This document shows positions 8,954 through 48,191 of a DNA stretch of 64,000 nt, piece by piece (the first letter of the stretch is position 1; every line of letters starts with the position of its first letter). A model generated the notes under the pieces. That model was not told the DNA's origin and did not search any database. It saw nothing but the letters and a program-made list of their open reading frames with translations. Source of the DNA: Syntrophotalea acetylenica (GTDB taxonomy: Bacteria; Desulfobacterota; Desulfuromonadia; Desulfuromonadales; Syntrophotaleaceae); NCBI RefSeq assembly GCF_001888165.1, contig NZ_CP015455.1, positions 434,001 through 498,000 on the forward strand, in the 5' to 3' direction. The translations under genes were made by a program, and so were the position numbers.

Positions 8954-9822
8954 GTGGACCGATTGAGCACTTTTTTTTCCTCCCCCTTGCACCTGCCGTT
9001 TAACAACCATTGCTTGCAGGAGCATTTTCAACAAGCGACGCCGGATCGTGATCCGGGTGGCGACGGGTACTGGATCATATTGCGCGGCAGCGAACTGCTG
9101 TTGCAAAAAGCGGCCGCTGGGCCGTGTCTTCCCCGTGGCGTCTTTGCGCCTGACTGGCCGGTGCAGGATGTCCCCCTGTTTTTCGGAACCTGGGATGGGG
9201 TGCCATGCCGGATGTTGCCGTGGCCGGAACAAGAGCTTTTGCCCGATGGTCTGGAGGCTTGCCAGTTACGGGATTGGGGAGCTTGTATTCCCGTCGATCT
9301 GTTATCCCTCGGGGGCTGGCGCACCAGATCCGGCACTGGGAGTCGAACAGCCGGGTCTGCAGCCGGTGCGGCAATTCCATGCTACGGTTGCCGGGCGAGT
9401 GGGGCAAACGCTGCTGCGGTTGTGGCGCCCTGCATTTTCCTCACATTCACCCCTGCGCCATTACGCTGGTGCGCCGACCTGGAGAAGTGCTGCTGACACG
9501 CAAAGCCGAGTGGCCTGACGGGCATTACAGTCTGGTGGCGGGTTTCGTCAATTTCGGTGAATGTCTGGAGGAGGCGGCGGTTCGGGAGATTACTGAAGAA
9601 ACCGGGGTGCGGGTCAAAAATCTGCGTTATGTCGGCAGTCAGTGCTGGCCTTTCCCCAGCCAGATGATGGCCGGATTCGTTGCGGATTATGAAAGCGGCG
9701 AACTGGTTGTCGATTACAGCGAACTGGCCGATGCCCGCTGGTTTTCCGTTAAGGCACTCCCGAAACTGCCGCCGCGGCGCAGCATCTCACGATTTATCCT
9801 TGATCACTATCTGCACATGTGA
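8954..9822 (+). pseudogene. nudC: NADH pyrophosphatase NudC, frame broken by one base
   Basis: The two halves are in different frames. The first (GTG at 8954, ribosome site GGAG) carries the NudC N-terminal domain up to VDLLSLGG. The second carries the zinc ribbon (CSRCG...CCGCG), the Nudix box (GFVNFGECLEEAAVREITEE) and SQCWPFPSQ, a variant of the SQPWPFPxS signature of NADH pyrophosphatases. The break is at a G5 run, 9311-9315. Adding one G gives a continuous 289-residue protein with no lost residue. NudC also removes NAD caps from RNA in E. coli. The 3' end overlaps the convergent ald gene by 29 bp. It is labelled a pseudogene only because the frame as given is broken; I think the real gene is intact. 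Confidence 0.82.
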
Positions 9823-10918
9823 CGGGTGAAAAAGCCAGCCCCAAAGCGCTGGCCACCTTCCTGTTGTGTATCTGGCCGTCACGGGTGTTGAGTCCTTTGG
9901 CAAGGGCGGCATCGCAAGCCAGGGCGTTTGACACTCCCAGGTCGGCGATTTTGCGGATGTAGGCCAGGGTGCTGTTGGTCAGGGCGAAAGTGCTGGTGCG
10001 GCTGACCGCTCCCGGGATGTTGGGCACGCCGTAATGCAAAACCCCGTGCACTGTTCGCACCGGTTCGTCGTGGGTGGTGGGGCGGACGGTCTCGACACAG
10101 CCTCCCTGATCGACCGCCAGATCGACGATCACGCTGCCCGGTTCCATTTGCTTTACCAAATCCTCCGTTACCAGGTGGGGTGCCCTGGCCCCCGGAATCA
10201 GCACCGCGCCGACCACCAGGTCGGCATGTCGTACCTCGTCCTCGATGTTCTGGGAATTGGAAATCAGAGTGTGGATGCGGTTGCCGTAGTGCTCGTCGAG
10301 CAGGGCCAGTCGCGAAGGCTCGATATCGAGAACCGTGACGTCGGCGCCCATGCCGACCGCGATGCGCACGGCGTTGCTGCCGCCGGTACCGGCCCCCAGC
10401 ACCACGACGCGTCCCGGGCGCACACCGGGTGCGCCGGCAAGAAGCACGCCTTTGCCCCCCTGTTCTTTTTGCAGAAAATGGGCGCCGATCTGTACCGCCA
10501 TGCGTCCGGCAACTTCACTCATGGGCTGCAGCAGGGGCAGACTGCCATCGTGCAGTTGCACCGTTTCATAAGCCAGGGCGGTTATCCGGTTTTGCAGCAG
10601 CACGGAGGTCAGAGCTGTATTGGTCGCCAGGTGCAGATAGGTAAACAGGCACTGGCCGCTGCGCAACAGCCCGTATTCAGCCGGCAGCGGCTCCTTGACT
10701 TTTACGATCAGGTCGGCCTGTGCATAGACTTCGGCAGCACCTTCCACCGTGCGGGCACCGGCTTCAAGGTATTCCCGGTCCTCCAGGCCGCTGCCGCTGC
10801 CGACGCCGCATTCCACGACAATATCATGTCCCGATTCGGTCAGGGCGCGGACTCCTGCCGGCGTCATGGCGACCCGGTATTCCCTGACTTTGATCTCTCT
10901 GGGTATTCCGACAATCAT
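9794..10918 (-). CDS. ald: Alanine dehydrogenase
   Basis: NAD-dependent L-alanine dehydrogenase that interconverts alanine with pyruvate and ammonia. The length of 374 residues is typical. The N-terminus [20 protein letters not shown] contains the substrate-binding Arg/Lys region. [20 protein letters not shown] is family-typical, and the NAD fold is visible as [20 protein letters not shown] at about residues 170-190. The 3' end overlaps the end of nudC (convergent). serA lies upstream on the same strand, separated by a large palindrome. Confidence 0.95.
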
Positions 10919-10994: not shown

Positions 10995-12599
10995 TCATTG
11001 TTCCGGTCGTGCTTTGAGCACGTGCAGATATTTGATGAAGCTTGCCACGATGACCGATCCGATTTCGTCTACCACGTTGGACGGAACCGGCGAGTCCAGA
11101 GACAGGATAACCATGGCCTCGCCCCGCTTTTGCTGGCGTCCGAGATTCATGGCGGCGATATTGATATCGTGTTCCCCCAGAACCTGTCCAATTTTACCGA
11201 TCATGCCCGGCCGGTCCTGGTAGGTAATGACCAGCATGTGTTCTTCAGGAGCAAAATCGACCTGGTAGTCGCGCAGACGCACGACACGCGGTTGCCCTTC
11301 GAAGTGGGTGCCGACGATGGTGCGGCGCATGCCGGGGCCTTCGATGTCGATGGTTACGGTGTTGGCGAAGGCTGCGGGGGCGGGGTTTTTGACTTCCTCG
11401 ACGGCGATACCCATGTTTTCCGCGATAAGCGCCGCATTGACCATGTTGACGTCCTGCTCGACCTTGTTGTTCAGCAGCGCCGCCATGCCGCAAACGGTTA
11501 TCGGCGAGCAATCGTATTCGGCCACGCTCCCCTGGTAGGTAAAAGTGACCTTGTTGAGATTGGAATCGGCCAGTTGCGAAACGAAATCGGCCATGATGTT
11601 GACCAGTCGCAGAAAGGGCCGCATCTGCCCCATCAATGAACTGTCGAAGCGCGGAATGTTTGCGGCGTATTCCATGGGCTGTTCATTGGCGAAGCGTACG
11701 ATGTCCCGGGCCACGTCAATGGAGACATTGATCTGGGCTTCAGCGCTGGACGCGCCCAGGTGCGGGATGGCGAGCATGCGCTCGTGGGCAACCAGTTTTT
11801 TGAGGTGTTCACTTTGCGGAGGCTCCTCGCTCCATACATCGACACAGGCCGCGCCGACCTTGCCGCTTTCCAGGGCGGCCAGCAGGTCCTGCTCATTGAT
11901 GATGCCGCCGCGTGCGGTGTTGACCAGGATCACCCCGTCCTTCATCTGCTGCAGTTGGGGAGCGGCGATAAGGTTGCGGGTCTCGTCGTTGAGAGGCACG
12001 TGCACGGTGATGACATCGGAGGATCGGATCAACTCTTCGAGGGACACCAGCCGGATTCCCAGATCCTGGACCCGTTTTTCAGAAATGTAGGGATCGCAGC
12101 CGATGACTTCGCAGTCGAAGGCTTTCAGTCGGGTGACGACACCCCCGCCGATTTTGTTCAGGCCAATAACCCCGGCGACCTTGCCTTTGAGTTCCATCGC
12201 CTTGATGGAGCGATTCCAGGCGCCGCCCTTGATGCTTGTGTCGGCCTTCACCAGTTTCCGGCAGGTGGCCAGAATCAGGGCCATGGCGTGCTCGACGACG
12301 CTGTTGATGTTTCCGAAAGGTGCGTTGCAGACAATGATGCCTCTTTCACTGGCGGCTTTCAGGTCGACGTTGTCAAGTCCCACGCCCGCTCTCGCGACGA
12401 CCTTGAGGTTTTTGCCGGCTTCAAGCAGTTCACGATCGGCCTTGGTTGCGCTGCGAATCACCAACCCCTCGTAACTGTCGATGATCCGGAGCAATTCTTC
12501 CCGGCTCAGATCGGTTTTGACATCCAGTTCGACAAGGGGGTCCTTCTCCAGGATCAGCAGGCCCTCTTTGGCAACTTTTTCCGCAACCAGAATTTTCAT
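10995..12599 (-). CDS. serA: D-3-phosphoglycerate dehydrogenase
   Basis: First step of serine synthesis: 3-phosphoglycerate to 3-phosphohydroxypyruvate with NAD. The 534 residues have the long-form layout: catalytic and Rossmann domains (NTARGGIINEQDLLAALESG, then IPHLGASSAEAQINV with the catalytic His), an intervening domain, and a C-terminal ACT domain (MLVITYQDRPGMIGKIGQVL) that normally senses serine. The start ATG follows AAAGGAG. One oddity: the dinucleotide loop reads GLNKIG rather than the usual GxGxxG, with Asn at the second glycine. A class V aminotransferase that could perform the next step lies at 39.4-40.5 kb under a ZTP riboswitch. Confidence 0.95.
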   Translation of the reverse strand: MKILVAEKVAKEGLLILEKDPLVELDVKTDLSREELLRIIDSYEGLVIRSATKADRELLEAGKNLKVVARAGVGLDNVDLKAASERGIIVCNAPFGNINSVVEHAMALILATCRKLVKADTSIKGGAWNRSIKAMELKGKVAGVIGLNKIGGGVVTRLKAFDCEVIGCDPYISEKRVQDLGIRLVSLEELIRSSDVITVHVPLNDETRNLIAAPQLQQMKDGVILVNTARGGIINEQDLLAALESGKVGAACVDVWSEEPPQSEHLKKLVAHERMLAIPHLGASSAEAQINVSIDVARDIVRFANEQPMEYAANIPRFDSSLMGQMRPFLRLVNIMADFVSQLADSNLNKVTFTYQGSVAEYDCSPITVCGMAALLNNKVEQDVNMVNAALIAENMGIAVEEVKNPAPAAFANTVTIDIEGPGMRRTIVGTHFEGQPRVVRLRDYQVDFAPEEHMLVITYQDRPGMIGKIGQVLGEHDINIAAMNLGRQQKRGEAMVILSLDSPVPSNVVDEIGSVIVASFIKYLHVLKARPEQ

Positions 12600-36284: not shown

Positions 36285-37436
36285 TCAATCGGCCACAAGT
36301 GCCTGTGGAATGATTCGCGGCGCCATCGGCGGATCCTGTAAAATCCTGGACGGAGCGTTTTTTTGCTGCTCGATAATGCGCAAACTGGTTGCGGAAAAAG
36401 AAAATATAGCGGTGTCTCCCGGTTTGAGATCCTGCTCACGGGCACCCATCACTGTGACGGCGGCCTGCAGGCAGAATCCGTCGGCCTGGCCTGTTACCCA
36501 TACCAGTGGGCCGCGTCGTTCCATGCGAACAATCTCGGCGGGCAGATGGTTACGCAAGGTGCCACGTGGCTGTTCTCTGGCCAGGCCCAGTTCCTCGGGC
36601 CGCACGGATACCAGAATCTGCTGTCCGACCGGGGCGTGGTCAATGCTGTAAAACCGGGCCTTCCCAGCCTCGATGTGCGTCAGACCCGAAGGGTCACAGT
36701 CGAGCACCCTGCCTTGCAGTATGTTGCGCGCACCGAGAAAATGGGCAACAAAGCCGGGGCGCGGGCAGTTGAAAACATGCTCGGGGGAGCCGGTTTGCAG
36801 AATCTGCCCATCATGCAAAACCGCCACCTGGTCGGCGAGGGCCCAGACATCTTCCATGTCGTGGGTGACATGCAGGACGGTGACGTCGAGGTCTTTGACC
36901 AGTTGGCGCAGCAGGCTGCGCATGCGTTCCCGGCTGGCAACGTCCAGCGCGCTGAAGGCCTCATCCAACAACAAAACCTTGGGATCGGCAACAAGCGCCC
37001 TTGCAAGCGCGGCGCGTTGCTGTTCTCCTCCCGACAGCGTGTTGATGTCCCTGTGCAGCAGGTTTTCGATGCCGAGGCGGGCGGAGATGTCGCAAACCTT
37101 GGTTTTTACCTGTTTTCGGGACATTTTCTGCAGCTTCATGCCGAAGGCGATATTGTCAAATATGTTCAGATGTGGAAAAAGCATGTAGTCCTGGTATACG
37201 ATACCCATCTTGCGCCGCTCCGGGGACCATTTTGTGATGTCCTGCCCATGCAACAGGATCTGGCCGCGCAGGGGATTGAAGCTGCCGATGATCGTTTCCA
37301 GAAGGATGCTCTTCCCGGCCCCCGAGTCACCGATAAGGCAGCAGTATTTGCCTTTCTCCACAGCCAGGCTGGCACCTCTCAGGCTGAATTCTCCCAGGTC
37401 GACATACAGGTCCCGGATCTCCAGCAACGCCATCAT
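36285..37436 (-). CDS. Molybdate/tungstate ABC transporter ATP-binding protein
   Basis: 383 residues. The ATPase domain has Walker A GDSGAGKSILLE, Q-loop VYQDYMLFPHL, signature LSGGEQQRAALARAL, Walker B VLLLDEAFSALD and switch His in HVTHDMED. The C-terminal 140 residues form a TOBE-like regulatory domain (VSVRPEELGLA), typical of ModC/WtpC subunits. The start overlaps the permease stop (ATGA). Third gene of a minus-strand operon with the permease and binding protein. Whether Mo or W is preferred cannot be told. Confidence 0.88.
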   Translation of the reverse strand: MMALLEIRDLYVDLGEFSLRGASLAVEKGKYCCLIGDSGAGKSILLETIIGSFNPLRGQILLHGQDITKWSPERRKMGIVYQDYMLFPHLNIFDNIAFGMKLQKMSRKQVKTKVCDISARLGIENLLHRDINTLSGGEQQRAALARALVADPKVLLLDEAFSALDVASRERMRSLLRQLVKDLDVTVLHVTHDMEDVWALADQVAVLHDGQILQTGSPEHVFNCPRPGFVAHFLGARNILQGRVLDCDPSGLTHIEAGKARFYSIDHAPVGQQILVSVRPEELGLAREQPRGTLRNHLPAEIVRMERRGPLVWVTGQADGFCLQAAVTVMGAREQDLKPGDTAIFSFSATSLRIIEQQKNAPSRILQDPPMAPRIIPQALVAD

Positions 37437-38218
37437 AGTACCACCTCACGGTTCAACATCTCAAAAACCACGATAGCCGCCAGAGAAATCAGAATCAGCA
37501 GGATACCCGAGGTCATGGCCATGGCCAGATTGCCATAGGAGATGTTCAGATACAGAGTGATCGGCAGCGTTTCCGTGAACATGCGGGTGCCGCCGGCCAG
37601 GATGAGAACCGTTCCGAAACAGCCCATGCACCGGGCAAATGCAATCACCGCTCCGGCAAACAGACCGCCTCTGGCCATGGGCAGGGTCACGCGCCAGAAG
37701 GCCGCCCATTGCCCGCAGCCAAGGCTGCGGGCCACCAGTTCATAACGTGGACTGATGCTGCGGAATGCGGCGTACACCACACGCGTCGCATAGGGCGCGG
37801 CGGTGAAGATCTGCGCAATGGCGATGCCGGTTTTGCTGAACACGATATCGATGCCGGCTTGCTTGAGCCAGCCGGCCACGGGATCGTGGCCGAACAGCAG
37901 CAGCAAACAAAGTCCCAGCACCAGTTCAGGGAATGCCATTGGCAAATCAACAACGGTGCGCAGCAGCTGATGGCCGGGGAACTGAAAGCGCGCCAGTACG
38001 TAGCCAATGCTGATCGCCAGTATCATGACCACCGCCACGGAAATGCCGCTGGTAATCAGCGACAGGCGGATACTGTAAAGCATTTCCTCCGACAGGGTGC
38101 TGCTGAGCACCTCCGCCCAGCGGGGCATAAAAACCAGGGACAACATGGCCCACAGCAGCATGCCCACAAACAATACGGTAATGCTGGTCAGACCTGCCTT
38201 GAAAAGCCGATTCGCCAT
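37433..38218 (-). CDS. Molybdate/tungstate ABC transporter permease
   Basis: 261 residues with about six membrane segments. The cytoplasmic EAA loop, which contacts the ATPase, is seen as ELVARSLGCGQWAAFWRVTL. Start at the ATG at 38218 (MANRLFKAG), 4 bp after the binding-protein stop; a longer in-frame start at 38287 would overlap the binding-protein gene heavily. It is a ModB/WtpB-type permease by family style and operon context. Confidence 0.88.
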   Translation of the reverse strand: MANRLFKAGLTSITVLFVGMLLWAMLSLVFMPRWAEVLSSTLSEEMLYSIRLSLITSGISVAVVMILAISIGYVLARFQFPGHQLLRTVVDLPMAFPELVLGLCLLLLFGHDPVAGWLKQAGIDIVFSKTGIAIAQIFTAAPYATRVVYAAFRSISPRYELVARSLGCGQWAAFWRVTLPMARGGLFAGAVIAFARCMGCFGTVLILAGGTRMFTETLPITLYLNISYGNLAMAMTSGILLILISLAAIVVFEMLNREVVL

Positions 38219-38222
38219 AAAA

Positions 38223-39008
38223 TCACTCCGGTCTGGCGACAGGGAAGCCCCATTTGCGCCACAGGGCCTTGCCCTCGGGCGATGCAATGTAATCGATGAA
38301 TGCCTGGGCCCGGTCCGCTTGTTGCGAATAGGTCACGACGGAGGCGGGAATGGTTTTGATGCTGTTCTGGGCAGCGGGGATCTGCACGATATCGACCTTG
38401 CCCCTGGCCTGGCCCCAGGTGGCCTGATCTTCCCAGGCGATGCAGGCATCCACCTGTCCGGTGGCGGCATAAATCAGCAGCTGGTTGGTGGTGCTGGGAC
38501 GAACCACGGTATTTTTTGCAACGGTTTCCATAAGGTTGTTCTTGGTCAGAATCTCGTTGCCGACTTTGCCGATGGCCGCAGCTTTGGCGTCGGCCAGGGC
38601 AACGCGCACGCCGGGCCGGGCCAGATCCCGCAGCGATTGGATTTTTGCAGGATTGCCGGCCGGTACCAGGATGACCGGCACATGGTAGCATAGCAACTTT
38701 TGTCCTTCTGCGCGGGCCAGCCCCTGCTTTACGGCATCCTTGTTGTATTTGTCCGCTCCGGGGATGAAAACGTCGCCTGCCTTGCGGGTGGCAATCATCC
38801 CGAACAGCTCGCCGGAGCCGCCATAGATCAACTGTACAGGGATCTTGTAGCGTGCCTCGAACTGTGTTTTGAGTTCATCCATCGGTTTCATCAGGCCAGC
38901 GCCGGCATACACCGTGAGCGGCTGCTGGCCCGCCAGGGCCGGGGCGCCGAAGCTGCCCATCATCAGAAGTACTGCCAAGCAGATTGTCCGCCACATTTTC
39001 ATACGCAT
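38223..39008 (-). CDS. Molybdate/tungstate-binding periplasmic protein
   Basis: 261 residues with a signal peptide (MRMKMWRTICLAVLLMMGSF to about ALA). The type II binding-protein fold has TVYAGAGLMKPMDELKTQFE, YGGSGELFGMI and GDVFIPGADKYNKD. These match the ModA/WtpA family, which binds oxyanions through main-chain and Ser/Thr contacts. First gene of the operon, so it would be made in excess. moaA and moaC elsewhere in the window fit a need for Mo/W cofactor. Confidence 0.88.
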   Translation of the reverse strand: MRMKMWRTICLAVLLMMGSFGAPALAGQQPLTVYAGAGLMKPMDELKTQFEARYKIPVQLIYGGSGELFGMIATRKAGDVFIPGADKYNKDAVKQGLARAEGQKLLCYHVPVILVPAGNPAKIQSLRDLARPGVRVALADAKAAAIGKVGNEILTKNNLMETVAKNTVVRPSTTNQLLIYAATGQVDACIAWEDQATWGQARGKVDIVQIPAAQNSIKTIPASVVTYSQQADRAQAFIDYIASPEGKALWRKWGFPVARPE

Positions 39009-39426: not shown

Positions 39427-40503
39427 TCAGGCGCGCACCTGGGGCAGCAGTTCCTCAAGCAGCGCAAAATATTCTTCCATGTCGGCCATGGTCATGTCGC
39501 CCATGTGCGGGATGCGGAATGTCGTATTTTTGATCTTGCCGTAGCCGCCGTCCATGGCATAGCCGCGTTCACCGAGCAGTTCCTTGAGACGGGCCACATC
39601 GGTGCGGCCGTCGTTGGCGACGGCGGTCAAGGTCTGGGAGCGAGCGCCTTCGGCGGCATACAGCCCAAAGCCCTGCTTCAGGGCCCAGGCGCGGGTGGTG
39701 TCGGCCATCAGGCGGTGGCGTGCGTAGCGGTTTTCCAGGCCCTCGGCGAACATTTTCTGCAACTGGTGGCGCAGGGCGAAGATCATGCTGATGCAGGGCG
39801 TGCTGGGGGTGTTGTTTTTCTCGTCGTTCTTTTCGAATTCCTCGAAATCGAAATAGTAGCCCCGGTTGGGAGTGGTGCGCGCCTTGTCCAGGGCCTTGCG
39901 GCTGACGGCGAACACGGCCAGTCCCGGCGGCAGGGCGAAGGCCTTCTGTACGCCGGCCAGGCAGACATCGATGCCCAGGGCGGTGACGTCGATGGGGACG
40001 GCGCTCATGGAGGAGACGGTATCCACGATGAAGGAGACATCGGGGTATTTCTGCATCACCGCGGCAATCTCCTCAAGAGGTGACATGACTCCTGTGGAAG
40101 TTTCGTTGTGAACCAGGGTCATGGCGTCGTATTTGCCGGTAGACAGGGCCTCGTCAACCATCGCCGCGGTTACCGGTTGCCCCCATTCGGCGCTGAATAC
40201 GTCGGCTTCGAGGCCACAGCGCAGGGTAACGTCGTACCACTTCTTGCTGAATGCGCCGTTGGCGAAACAGGCGCAGCGTTTTTGCACCAGGTTACGGACC
40301 GCACCCTCCATAACGCCGAAGGCGCTGGATGTGGACAGAAAAACCGGTCCGGGGGCATTCAGCAGTTTTTTAAGGCCGTCGACGACTTCTTTGTGCAGGA
40401 CGGCGTACTCTTTCATGCGGTGGCCGATCATGGGGGTGGCCATGACTTCCAGAACGTCGGCACTCACTTCAACGGGTCCGGGGATATAGAGTTTCTTGCT
40501 CAT
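39427..40503 (-). CDS. Class V aminotransferase (phosphoserine/serine/alanine-glyoxylate type)
   Basis: A 358-residue PLP enzyme. It begins MSKKLYIPGPVEVSADVLEV. The cofactor Lys is in GVQKAFALPPGL at about residue 185, with PLP-contacting Asp in FIVDTVSSMSAVP and HNETSTGV upstream. Class V members of this shape act as serine-glyoxylate, alanine-glyoxylate or phosphoserine aminotransferases. The ZTP riboswitch upstream ties it to one-carbon and purine metabolism, so a serine-pathway role next to SerA is the best guess. Start at 40503 with AAGGAG; in-frame codons further upstream run through the riboswitch and are not translated. Confidence 0.88.
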   Translation of the reverse strand: MSKKLYIPGPVEVSADVLEVMATPMIGHRMKEYAVLHKEVVDGLKKLLNAPGPVFLSTSSAFGVMEGAVRNLVQKRCACFANGAFSKKWYDVTLRCGLEADVFSAEWGQPVTAAMVDEALSTGKYDAMTLVHNETSTGVMSPLEEIAAVMQKYPDVSFIVDTVSSMSAVPIDVTALGIDVCLAGVQKAFALPPGLAVFAVSRKALDKARTTPNRGYYFDFEEFEKNDEKNNTPSTPCISMIFALRHQLQKMFAEGLENRYARHRLMADTTRAWALKQGFGLYAAEGARSQTLTAVANDGRTDVARLKELLGERGYAMDGGYGKIKNTTFRIPHMGDMTMADMEEYFALLEELLPQVRA

Positions 40504-40526
40504 GGCTGTCTGCTCCTTCGGAAAAT

Positions 40527-40564
40527 AAAAAACGCCTGGCCCTTGTTCAAGGGGGCCCAGGCGT
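40527..40564 (-). terminator. Riboswitch-controlled terminator
   Basis: Stem CGCCTGG.CCC / GGGCCAGGCG followed by T6 on the minus strand. Its 5' arm is the conserved 3' segment of the ZTP aptamer, so ligand binding and termination should be mutually exclusive. Confidence 0.85.
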
Positions 40565-40636
40565 ACGGCTCTCAGGTCTTTTGATCCCGCTCCCCGGTGG
40601 TGAACCACCTCGAGACGCCAGTTACGGGAGACCTGC
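40555..40636 (-). promoter_or_regulatory. ZTP (pfl) riboswitch
   Basis: On the minus strand the aptamer reads CCCGTAACTGGCG, then a GGTGG-TTCA-CCACC hairpin, then GGGGAGCGGGA, closed by a CAGGTCT/AGACCTG helix. It is followed by the 3' conserved CCGTACGCCTGGGC. This is the pfl/ZTP consensus, which senses the purine intermediate AICAR triphosphate/monophosphate when 10-formyl-tetrahydrofolate is short. The overlap with the downstream terminator predicts an ON switch. Confidence 0.93.
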
Positions 40637-40667
40637 AAATTGTCGGAACTCATGCGAGTTGAAAACC

Positions 40668-40696
40668 AAGTAACACACCTGCTTTCTCAAAGTCAA
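40668..40696 (-). promoter_or_regulatory. Possible promoter of the riboswitch transcript
   Basis: TTGACT, 17 bases and TTACTT on the minus strand, ending about 30 bases before the aptamer. The -35 is good, the -10 weak. Confidence 0.4.
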
Positions 40697-40819: not shown

Positions 40820-40846
40820 TTAGCACTCACCCAAAACGAGTGCTAA
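40820..40846. promoter_or_regulatory. CIRCE operator (HrcA site)
   Basis: Perfect TTAGCACTC-N9-GAGTGCTAA inverted repeat, the binding site of the heat-shock repressor HrcA. It lies about 13 bp after the -10 of the groES promoter. No hrcA gene is in the window. Confidence 0.97.
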
Positions 40847-45375: not shown

Positions 45376-46647
45376 TTATATTTTCTCCGCCGCCGCCAGA
45401 CCGTCGGCTACCAGCTCCAGAACATGACATGCTTTTTGCGGCAGCCCCGCATGGTTGATGGCGTCCTGCAATTGCATGATACATCCCGGGCAGGCGGTCG
45501 CCACGATTTCGGCGCCGCTGTCCCGGATCCCTTCGGCTTTCAGGGCACCAAGCTGTTTGCTGACATCGTAATGGTAGACCGAAAACGTCCCCCCCAAACC
45601 GCAACAGGCATCGGCATTTTTCATATCGACCATGCGTACCGAGGGCAGCGCTGACAGCAAACGGGGAGGAGCATCCTTCAGCCCGGCCTGACGCAGATGG
45701 CAAGGCACATGGTAGGCAACGGGGCGCGGATTGTCATGGCGGGGCATGCGCAGCAGTTTTTCCTCTATTCCCTGCTTTATCAGAAACTCATGGATATCCA
45801 TGACCTTGTCGGAAAGTGCCGCATGCTGCGGACCGAGGTCGCAAAAATGCCTGGTCAAACCGCTGTGGCAGGAGGCGCAGGCGGTGATGATGACATCGGC
45901 CTTGTGCGCCGTCAGGGCCTCCAGGTTGCGGTCCGCAAGCCGCGCCGCGGCTTGGCCGTCGCCGGCGCAAAGCGCCGGCAATCCGCAGCATCCCTGGTCT
46001 CTGGGGATGAGAATGTTCATGCCGAGATTCTGCAGGACGGCTACAACGCTGTCGCCGATTTCCGGAAGCACGTAATTGATCATGCAGCCGGTGAAAAAGG
46101 TCACCAGGGGTTTGTCGGGCTCTCCCGCGATGAATTCGGGATGGCTCTGGCGAAAAGTCCGGGGTGCGATTTCCGGGAGCGTGCGGTCTCGGCTGATGTA
46201 GGGCGCCGGAAAGCGCAGGCGCAGGCCGCTGCTGCCGGGAACGCGGCGCAGGGCCAGCCAGGAGAACATGCGACCCATTCGGGTCAGCAGGTTCATCAGC
46301 CAGGGGCGTTGCAGTACCGTGGCAACGCCGCGGCCGAACAGGGTCAGTCCCTTTTCCCGTCCTATGCGGCGTCGCAAAGCCAGAATAATCTGGTCGGTCG
46401 GCACCTGATTGGGGCATTCCTTGACGCAGCGGCCACAGGCCAGGCATTGGGAAATATCGCTGATAAACCGGCGGTCGAGATCGATCTTGCCATCCAGCAA
46501 AGCCTGTGCAAGGGATATCTTGCCCCGTGCCACCACCGCTTCGGACTGGACCTGGCTGAACACCGGGCAGTGTGCCCTGCAGGTGCCGCATTTGACGCAT
46601 TCGCGCAGGTTTTTCCGGTAATCTTCTATGTCCTGATGTTTGCTCAT
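45376..46647 (-). CDS. Glycolate/lactate oxidase-type iron-sulfur subunit (GlcF-like)
   Basis: 423 residues. Two ferredoxin-type 4Fe-4S motifs lie at the N-terminus (CVKCGTCRAHCP at about 17-28, CLACGRCVKECP at about 69-80). Two C-terminal cysteine-rich CCG domains follow (QGCCGLPALC and DACCGLGGTF). This is the GlcF/LutA/GlpC layout that passes electrons from a flavin dehydrogenase to the membrane pool. It follows the FAD subunit gene after 79 bp. The start at 46647 (MSKHQDIEDY) has only a weak ribosome site. The substrate (glycolate, lactate or another 2-hydroxyacid) is not determined. Confidence 0.88.
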   Translation of the reverse strand: MSKHQDIEDYRKNLRECVKCGTCRAHCPVFSQVQSEAVVARGKISLAQALLDGKIDLDRRFISDISQCLACGRCVKECPNQVPTDQIILALRRRIGREKGLTLFGRGVATVLQRPWLMNLLTRMGRMFSWLALRRVPGSSGLRLRFPAPYISRDRTLPEIAPRTFRQSHPEFIAGEPDKPLVTFFTGCMINYVLPEIGDSVVAVLQNLGMNILIPRDQGCCGLPALCAGDGQAAARLADRNLEALTAHKADVIITACASCHSGLTRHFCDLGPQHAALSDKVMDIHEFLIKQGIEEKLLRMPRHDNPRPVAYHVPCHLRQAGLKDAPPRLLSALPSVRMVDMKNADACCGLGGTFSVYHYDVSKQLGALKAEGIRDSGAEIVATACPGCIMQLQDAINHAGLPQKACHVLELVADGLAAAEKI

Positions 46648-46726
46648 GTATTGTTCCGTAGGGCGGTCGGGCCGCCTGGTGTTGTGCGTTTTCCTGGCTT
46701 CGGGCCCATCAACGGCGTGATCTCGA

Positions 46727-48121
46727 TCATGCCGTTGGGCCATCAACCGGGAAGATTTTCCCCGGATTGAGGATCTGCTTCGGGTCCAGAGCGTGCTTGA
46801 TGGTCTTCATGCAGGCCATGGTCGCCGGGTCAAGCTCCATGCCGAGGTAGGGTGCCTTGCTGGTGCCGACGCCGTGTTCACCGCTCATGGTTCCGCCGAG
46901 TTCCAGTGTCTTGGCGAAAATCTCGCGGATGGCCGTTTCGGCCTTTTCTTCCTGTCCCTGGAGGGAACGGTCGACCATGATGTTGACGTGAATGTTGCCG
47001 TCTCCGGCATGTCCGAAGTTGACGATGGGAATTTCCAGCCTGTTGGAAATGCTCTCGATGGCGCGGATCATATCGGGAAGCTTGCTGCGCGGCACGCAGA
47101 TATCTTCGTTATATTTATCGGGATTGACTTTGCGCAGGCTTGGCGAGACGCTGCGCCGTACCTGCCAGAGCCGCTCGCTTTCCTCGTCGGTGGCGGCGAT
47201 GCTGGTGTGCACCACGCCGAGCGGAGATGCGATTTCGAGGATGCGGGTGGCCTGCCGTTCCAGCAATTCCCGGTCGCCGTCGACCTCGATGATCAGCACC
47301 GCGCGAGCCGACTCGGGAATATCGAGGTTGGCATTCTGGCGCACGCAGGCCAGGGCCGTCGCGTCCATGAACTCGAGCGTGGTGGGAATGATTTTGCCGC
47401 GGATGATGTTCGATACGGCCTGGGCGGCACCGTCGATGGAATCGAACATGACCAGCATGGTTTTTTTGGCTTCAGGCCTGGGCAGAAGTTTGAGGATGAT
47501 TCTGGTGATGACCCCGAGGGTGCCTTCGCTGCCGACCATCAGCTTGGTCAGATCGTAGCCGACCACCCCTTTCATGGTTTCTCCGCCGGTGCGGATGATG
47601 TCGCCGGTCGGGGTGACGACTTCCAGACCGAGAACGTAGTCCTTGGTGACCCCGTATTTGACACAGCGCGGACCGCCAGCGCATTCGGCGACGTTGCCTC
47701 CAAGTGTGCTGAATTTCAGCGAGGCGGGATCGGGAGGGTAGAACAAGCCCACCTCCTCCACCGCTTTTTGCAGGGTGGCGGTGACGACTCCCGGTTCCAC
47801 TTCGGCGATGAGGTTGTCCTGGTCGATGCGCAGGATGCGGTTCAGCCGGGTCAGTACCAGGGCGATGCCTCCCCGGATCGGAACGCTGCCGCCGGTGAAT
47901 CCGCTGCCGGCGCCCCGAGGGTAGACGGGGAGATTTTCAGCGTTGGCCATTTTCAGGATCAGGCTGACCTGTGCGGCGTCTGCGGGGCGCACGATGACAT
48001 CGGGGAAAAATTGCTGCTGTGTGGCATCGTAGGAATAACAGATGCGATCGGCCTGTTCGGTGGAGACGTATTGTTTGCCGACGATATCCCGTAAGATAGT
48101 GATGATGCGGTTATCCAGCAT
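46727..48121 (-). CDS. FAD-linked 2-hydroxyacid dehydrogenase subunit (GlcD-like)
   Basis: 464 residues from the ATG at 48121. The FAD-binding PCMH domain has PRGAGSGFTGGSVP at about 78-91 and FSTLGGNVAECAGG. The C-terminal substrate domain has NFGHAGDGNIHVN and SGEHGVGTSKAPYLG. It oxidises a 2-hydroxyacid such as glycolate or D-lactate and hands electrons to the iron-sulfur protein encoded next. A longer start at 48298 would read through a terminator hairpin. Confidence 0.88.
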   Translation of the reverse strand: MLDNRIITILRDIVGKQYVSTEQADRICYSYDATQQQFFPDVIVRPADAAQVSLILKMANAENLPVYPRGAGSGFTGGSVPIRGGIALVLTRLNRILRIDQDNLIAEVEPGVVTATLQKAVEEVGLFYPPDPASLKFSTLGGNVAECAGGPRCVKYGVTKDYVLGLEVVTPTGDIIRTGGETMKGVVGYDLTKLMVGSEGTLGVITRIILKLLPRPEAKKTMLVMFDSIDGAAQAVSNIIRGKIIPTTLEFMDATALACVRQNANLDIPESARAVLIIEVDGDRELLERQATRILEIASPLGVVHTSIAATDEESERLWQVRRSVSPSLRKVNPDKYNEDICVPRSKLPDMIRAIESISNRLEIPIVNFGHAGDGNIHVNIMVDRSLQGQEEKAETAIREIFAKTLELGGTMSGEHGVGTSKAPYLGMELDPATMACMKTIKHALDPKQILNPGKIFPVDGPTA

Positions 48122-48191
48122 GGCTTCGAAGAGGTCCTTCGTAAAGCGGTTTCCGTCCGCGGATGTTCGGAGACAAAACCGGTTGAAGATA

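Follow-up and report, generated by a model that had tools for sequence, protein, structure and literature searches.

Why does a ZTP riboswitch stand before the gene of a class V aminotransferase? Both lie on the minus strand of the window, the stretch of 64,000 nucleotides analysed here. According to excerpts of the published work, the ZTP class senses ZMP/ZTP and its members are typically ON switches (PMC7337938, PMC9481103), and ZMP/ZTP accumulates when 10-formyl-THF is short (PMC7266159, PMC9481103). We think it likely that this riboswitch is a transcriptional ON switch over a non-orthologous replacement of SerC and that it relieves one-carbon shortage. By analogy with the class, we infer that this copy binds the ligand and switches, and from genome comparison we infer that the substrate of the enzyme is 3-phosphohydroxypyruvate.

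The riboswitch and its terminator

The leader and the gene that it precedes contain the following features.

40669..40696, minus strand: possible promoter, TTGACT (40696-40691) and GTTACT (40674-40669) with a 16-nt spacer (proposed by eye)
40548..40635, minus strand: ZTP (pfl) riboswitch aptamer, full length (Rfam RF01750)
40533..40563, minus strand: intrinsic terminator hairpin, which has CGCCTGGGC in common with the 3' conserved strand of the aptamer (sequence; -18.2 kcal/mol)
40527..40532, minus strand: T6 run closing the terminator, TTTTTT (sequence)
40513..40518, minus strand: Shine-Dalgarno-like AAGGAG, 9 nt before the ATG (read from the sequence)
39427..40503, minus strand: class V aminotransferase of 358 aa, proposed phosphoserine aminotransferase and non-orthologous SerC (PF00266, serC exclusion, His-Arg motif)

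A search of the whole window with Rfam 15 (cmscan) gave a full-length match to RF01750 (ZMP-ZTP) at 40635..40548 on the minus strand, which covers model positions 1-86 and scores 57.8 bits (E 8.7e-7; gathering score 39). It is the only RF01750 match found in the 3.2 Mb genome. A sequence-only reading of this DNA had recognized the pfl/ZTP consensus in all conserved blocks and had proposed the covariance-model search, and the full-length match above the gathering score agrees with it; the span that it gave, 40527-40636, is the aptamer and the terminator together. A chance match or an artefact is ruled out by the covariance score, the single match in the genome and the synteny in 23 of 23 loci of the order. 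The minimum free energy of the 161-nt leader was ordinary in comparison with shuffled sequences (z -0.71), so the support comes from the covariance model and conservation, and folding energy was set aside.

CGCCTGGGC is the last (3') conserved strand of the aptamer. It is also the 5' arm of the terminator hairpin, where it pairs downstream with GCCAGGCG, and as far as the T-run the hairpin has a folding energy of -18.2 kcal/mol. The same double use of the 3' conserved sequence, as the 5' arm of a T6 terminator, had been noticed in the sequence-only reading and is borne out by the hairpin (40563-40533) and the TTTTTT that comes after it (40532-40527). Because CGCCTGGGC pairs in both structures, the aptamer and the terminator compete for the same bases, which is an ON arrangement; the layout at 40563-40527, as read from the sequence, is thus that of the ON switch that had been predicted. 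In the parts of the papers available to us, the ON arrangement is worked out for a ZTP member from Thermosinus (PMC7337938), and terminator overlap and ON logic are described for many pfl RNAs (PMC2864571).

The hairpin at 40563-40533 was absent from the output of a consensus terminator scan; the interrupted stem is the probable reason. The candidate promoter at 40669..40696 was not called by a consensus promoter scan. Fifteen of 16 sequences, which represent 16 of the 23 loci of the order, have TTGACT or TTGACA 5' of the aptamer. The riboswitch itself is an ordinary member of the RF01750 class, with a full-length aptamer above the cut-off, a terminator that overlaps the 3' conserved strand and ON logic. 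It differs from the class in its target, which here is a SerC-like aminotransferase.

The aminotransferase and its relatives

The target had been called a class V PLP aminotransferase from the sequence alone, and PF00266 matches it with 68.5 bits against a gathering score of 21.5. A longer ORF of 408 aa would begin 5' of the aptamer, at 40653; the ATG at 40503 was chosen because every one of the ten sequences in a protein alignment has a Met at that position. The best curated match is BhcA aspartate-glyoxylate aminotransferase (NF045640), whose fold the enzyme shares but at a score far under the cut-off (206.5 of 650 bits). The model of 2-aminoethylphosphonate aminotransferase (PhnW-type, TIGR03301) gives 158.8 bits against a cut-off of 360.8, serC_3 (TIGR01366) 69.2 against 401.65, and serC_1 (TIGR01364), the canonical SerC, 42.6 against 443.6, while serC_2 (TIGR01365) gives no match at E 1e-5. 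The curated models alone leave the identity of the enzyme undecided, and the genomic evidence is decisive.

Among proteins of solved structure, PH1308 of Pyrococcus horikoshii (PDB 2dr1) is the best sequence relative (203.9 bits) and also the top structural match, with Z 49.2 and an rmsd of 1.4 over 357 residues at 35% identity. This archaeal protein has SHR at the place of the His-Arg of the window enzyme. Alanine-glyoxylate aminotransferases come next in the structural ranking (Z about 45), and structures named phosphoserine aminotransferase rank lower (3ffr Z 43.0, 2fyf 41.6, classical ones 37-38). AGT1 and SGAT share the fold as BhcA does, and the AGT-type chains listed are 20-30% identical; where the window enzyme has HR, however, AGT chain 1vjo has GHL and the plant chain 6pk1 has YR. 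MJ0959, a methanogen class V enzyme, likewise archaeal, reportedly makes phosphoserine.

A serine pathway with a gap at SerC

The preceding step of serine synthesis is encoded in the window.

10995..12596, minus strand: serA, phosphoglycerate dehydrogenase (TIGR01327, 576.9 bits, cut-off 454; PGDH intervening and ACT domains)

SerA had been placed at 11-12.6 kb in the sequence-only reading, as the TIGR01327 score confirms. The gene lies 27 kb from the aminotransferase gene and is not linked to it. SerB (283 bits against a cut-off of 144) and GlyA (575 bits) are also present. Canonical serC was not found in the genome, where the sole TIGR01364 match is the window gene itself, at 41.9 bits against 443.6; a separate serC was what the sequence-only reading had advised to look for. 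Since SerA, SerB and GlyA are present and canonical serC is not, the SerC step is a gap. The genome has seven other PF00266 matches. Five are each over the NCBIfam cut-off, namely SelA and four cysteine desulfurases, two of them NifS and two of the EF2568 type, and the remaining two are a homocysteine-synthase-like fragment and a class I/II-like aminotransferase (L007, judged by eye).

The enzyme had been suggested to feed serine to one-carbon units, possibly as the SerC partner of SerA, and this prediction is supported by the missing serC and by the order-wide exclusion of serC. At the level of sequence comparison, the SerC reading of the window enzyme is well supported. The other option that had been offered, a serine/glyoxylate activity, is less likely. 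In its general form, this alternative holds that the enzyme is a serine-, alanine- or aspartate-glyoxylate aminotransferase, which converts glyoxylate to glycine and is induced by ZTP to feed the glycine cleavage system. BhcA is the closest curated model, AGT structures rank next after PH1308, and a GlcD-like flavoprotein with an Fe-S partner at 45.4-48.1 kb, 5 kb away, could make glyoxylate. However, isocitrate lyase gave 0 matches in the genome (8 of 14 controls gave a match), SerA and SerB would be left without a partner, and the serC exclusion would go unexplained. We therefore consider a glyoxylate aminotransferase unlikely and keep to the SerC reading.

Distribution in the order

Under strict filters, a ZTP match, one each, was found in 23 of 136 genomes of the GTDB order. 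All 23 aptamers lie 44-229 nt before an ortholog of the window aminotransferase, and at all 23 loci the CGCCTGGGC strand folds into an overlapping terminator hairpin with a T run of 4-7. Covariation was seen as pairing-preserving double changes at 3 of the 15 modelled pairs. Every one of the 14 sampled genomes of the window's own family (f1) has a ZTP match, as do scattered genomes of other families. Under the same filters, 32 of the 55 order genomes with the window-type enzyme gave no ZTP match.

The window-type enzyme occurs in 55 of the 136 genomes, canonical serC in 61, both in 0 and neither in 20. A gene was counted as window-type when its best match had at least 70% identity, partial genes included, and as serC at 250 bits or more; both thresholds were set after the outputs. 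Because the two enzymes are distributed largely family by family, the Fisher value for the order (2e-21) is not a fair probability, and the values for the order and for the phylum both overstate the exclusion. Thirteen of the 20 genomes with neither enzyme belong to family f9, and across all 20 there are four with 95-98% completeness. Family f9 may also hold an exchange within a family: one genome (G073) has the window type without serC, serC is present in 30 of 44 and neither enzyme in 13 of 44.

These distributions bear on the idea that an unrelated aminotransferase, for example of class I/II, does the phosphoserine step, and that the serC exclusion reflects shared clade ancestry only. The exclusion is indeed at the family level, both enzymes are missing from 20 of 136 genomes, and transaminases may be nonspecific, as an excerpt of PMC5764234 has it. 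The idea fits poorly with the f9 genome that has the window type in place of serC, and with a second aminotransferase family, type B, that likewise excludes serC across the phylum and lies immediately 5' of serA. An unrelated enzyme at this step is in our judgement quite improbable, and we continue with the window enzyme as the SerC replacement.

Named relatives were scanned with an order-specific aptamer model, R1, in the best 80 of at least 568; among these 80, the two closest are Pelobacter MAGs with 94% and 93% identity. R1 gave five intact aptamers in the 80 loci, one decayed aptamer (L182, 41 bits) and four weak matches at E 0.04-1. The intact ones belong to Pelobacter sp. UBA6812, UBA5610, Desulfuromonas sp. 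CSMB_57, a Desulfuromonadales MAG and a Desulfuromonadaceae MAG. The Geobacter and Geomonas loci among the best 80 of at least 568 have the gene and no strong match to R1. In a set of 30 loci, R1 gave 17 strong and 2 weak matches; some of the loci are from the same genomes, seen twice. A search with Rfam for another riboswitch upstream of window-type genes, in 20 of 110 loci (L032-L061, L175-L254), returned one tRNA only, and none of 11 regions of 10-12 kb had a window-type gene beside serA.

Decayed aptamers that keep the terminator were found with R1 upstream of the same gene in two relatives, L053 (1388-1463, 41 bits) and L058 (1300-1381, 26 bits). Such cases could suggest that the riboswitch of the window is likewise a non-functional remnant. 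This copy, however, fits the consensus blocks at 57.8 bits, and all 14 sampled f1 genomes matched, so there is hardly any chance that it is a remnant.

Type B and other ZTP targets in the phylum

In a phylum sample of 395 genomes, 45 ZTP matches were found in 25 genomes, 43 of them above the cut-off. The genes 3' of ZTP encode monomeric NADP-isocitrate dehydrogenase (11), the type B aminotransferase (8), RnfC (8), GlyA (5, one of which rests on a 78-residue match), Fhs (2), the window-type aminotransferase (2) and SerA (1); kup, benE, pntA-like, icd, sucC and a CPA2 antiporter are single targets. These counts leave out 2 sub-threshold hits, one read without an assignable gene and one outside the set.

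Type B is a second class V aminotransferase family. All 8 of its ZTP loci (L102-L109) have the order ZTP, type B, serA, and at L093/L110 ZTP stands before serA. What the two SerC-like families under ZTP, one of them beside serA, have in common is serine supply. Of the 395 genomes, 187 have type B and 121 canonical serC, and the overlap is one genome, G436, with 9% contamination. The window-type enzyme is present in 11 genomes, 0 of which have serC, and 63 genomes have none of the counted types. Some of the phylum genomes without the other types are accounted for by a serC_2-type enzyme (TIGR01365), of which two representatives are over the cut-off (551.5 and 569.2 bits). L171 and L173 come from genomes that lack serC_1, the window type and type B and carry the serC_2 type; the copy at L173 overlaps serA.

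For these counts serC was taken at E <=6e-87, with a G248 fragment at 4e-45 left out, and type B at E <=1e-117, with weaker, fragmentary matches uncounted; both thresholds were set after the outputs. Fourteen more genomes with type B matches at E 1e-106 to 2e-97 were counted apart. Weaker type-B-like matches occur in three serC genomes of family f50 (G261, G358 and G419, E 1e-76 to 9e-73), and others are at about 1e-55 to 1e-62 (e.g., G238, G364, G404 and G477).

The IDH, rnfC, icd, sucC, pntA-like, kup and CPA2 antiporter targets are outside the usual one-carbon regulon. We tentatively raise the possibility that ZTP marks serine synthesis across the phylum-level group (window type, type B with serA, and serA once), with a wider one-carbon, redox and energy signal through NADP-IDH, RnfC, succinyl-CoA ligase and transhydrogenase in some families. 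The ZTP-IDH loci (L076, L085, L090, L095, L100, L155, L158, L160, L161, L166 and L170) and the ZTP-rnfC loci (L077, L079, L101, L156, L157, L163, L165 and L167) come from several families of the phylum. The ZTP aptamer at L080 (G175) precedes the gene of a BenE-family benzoate transporter; as a guess, this transporter might import p-aminobenzoate for folate synthesis.

The active-site motif

In plant SerC (PSAT), H110-R111 and the gate-loop H396-R397 bind the phosphate of phosphoserine, and R403 binds the carboxylate, according to part of PMC6043687. The H28-R29 of the window enzyme aligns with the first of these phosphate-binding His-Arg pairs (SHR) and R330 with the carboxylate Arg, and K187 is the catalytic Lys. 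The second phosphate pair, GHR in the gate loop, is missing; GYGKIK is in its place, and K325, near the position of the pair, is invariant in 29 of 29. Canonical SerC (TIGR01364) and the window enzyme thus have in common the fold class, the catalytic Lys, the carboxylate Arg and the first His-Arg pair, but the gate-loop GHR is gone and the window enzyme is not an ortholog.

At the first pair, all 110 window-type loci that were read have GHR; they comprise 91 different sequences, and some genomes are counted twice. HHR was present in 31 of 38 type B loci (those 31 caught by the search pattern) and SHR in 14 of 14 serC loci. Sixteen more distant class V proteins were fetched and 15 were read, 14 from the order and one from the phylum. 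GHL was found in 13 of the 15, and its carriers come from canonical-serC genomes in 10 cases and from genomes with neither enzyme in 3. The exceptions are L272 and L271; L271 is BhcA-like, has DHR and comes from a genome with serC. The DHR of L271 means that the His-Arg motif is not exclusive to phosphoserine function. The motif supports a phosphorylated substrate, short of proof. That 13 of these 15 proteins have GHL and not HR also speaks against the glyoxylate aminotransferase.

The His-Arg pair occurs as HHR in the Thermus protein 1iug as well, which is named a putative aspartate aminotransferase, and archaeal class V enzymes have broad specificity. The window enzyme could accordingly be a general aspartate/alanine aminotransferase, with ZTP serving the nitrogen and aspartate supply for purines and not serine. 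This would leave unexplained the missing serC beside SerA and SerB, and also the ZTP-serA and ZTP-type B-serA arrangements. We find such a general role very unlikely, and phosphoserine formation remains our preferred reading.

Proposed mechanism

When 10-formyl-THF is short, ZMP/ZTP would rise and bind the nascent leader. In the ligand-bound aptamer, P3 and the pseudoknot would hold CGCCTGGGC, so that the terminator would be blocked and RNA polymerase would read into the aminotransferase gene. The window enzyme would convert 3-phosphohydroxypyruvate, provided by SerA, to phosphoserine. SerB would convert phosphoserine to serine, and GlyA would yield glycine and 5,10-methylene-THF from serine, both for purines. 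The supply of methylene-THF would ease the one-carbon shortage that stalls AICAR formylation.

A precedent is given in the part of PMC9481103 available to us, where ZTP/glycine tandem riboswitches in Bacillus and Oceanobacillus precede a gene whose product opens the route from 3-phosphoglycerate to serine. There as here, the gene that ZTP would turn on belongs to this route. The tandems differ in acting on the first step with an added glycine OFF aptamer, whereas this locus has a single aptamer before the second step, and the target is not an ortholog of SerC. Because the serA-type precedent of Bacillus is in print, what this locus adds is its target, a non-orthologous SerC. A ZTP-SerC link was not found in the excerpts of the literature searched; Kim 2015 and the supplement of PMC2864571 were outside this search and may hold an earlier listing of 'aminotransferase class V'.

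The GapMind authors, in the part of PMC7311316 consulted, describe the standard SerACB path as absent in Desulfovibrio vulgaris and SerC as diverged in Echinicola, so such gaps are already recognised. In flux work on Geobacter sulfurreducens, a phosphoserine aminotransferase is taken as given, as an excerpt of PMC3002917 states. Our analysis offers a candidate to fill the SerC gap of Pelobacter-like bacteria, and homology extends the proposal to Geobacter-like bacteria, the loci examined being from others than G. sulfurreducens. It would extend ZTP control of serine synthesis from the first step, as excerpted from the Bacillus work (PMC9481103), to the SerC step in a different lineage, and would tie one-carbon shortage to serine supply.

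Neighbouring genes in the window

An alanine dehydrogenase gene (528.5 bits) is located at 9797-10918 on the minus strand, directly 3' of serA. The GlcD-like flavoprotein and its cysteine-rich Fe-S partner are encoded at 45379-48136 on the minus strand and score below the curated glycolate/lactate dehydrogenase cut-offs. ORFs of a molybdate-type ABC transporter are found 3' of the aminotransferase gene at 36285-39008 on the minus strand (ModA over the cut-off, its neighbours by eye), and terminator-like hairpins lie between them and the aminotransferase gene. A perfect inverted repeat, TTAGCACTC-N9-GAGTGCTAA, which we take to be a CIRCE element, is present at 40820-40846 upstream of groES-like and groEL-like ORFs (read by eye) that are divergent from the riboswitch gene.
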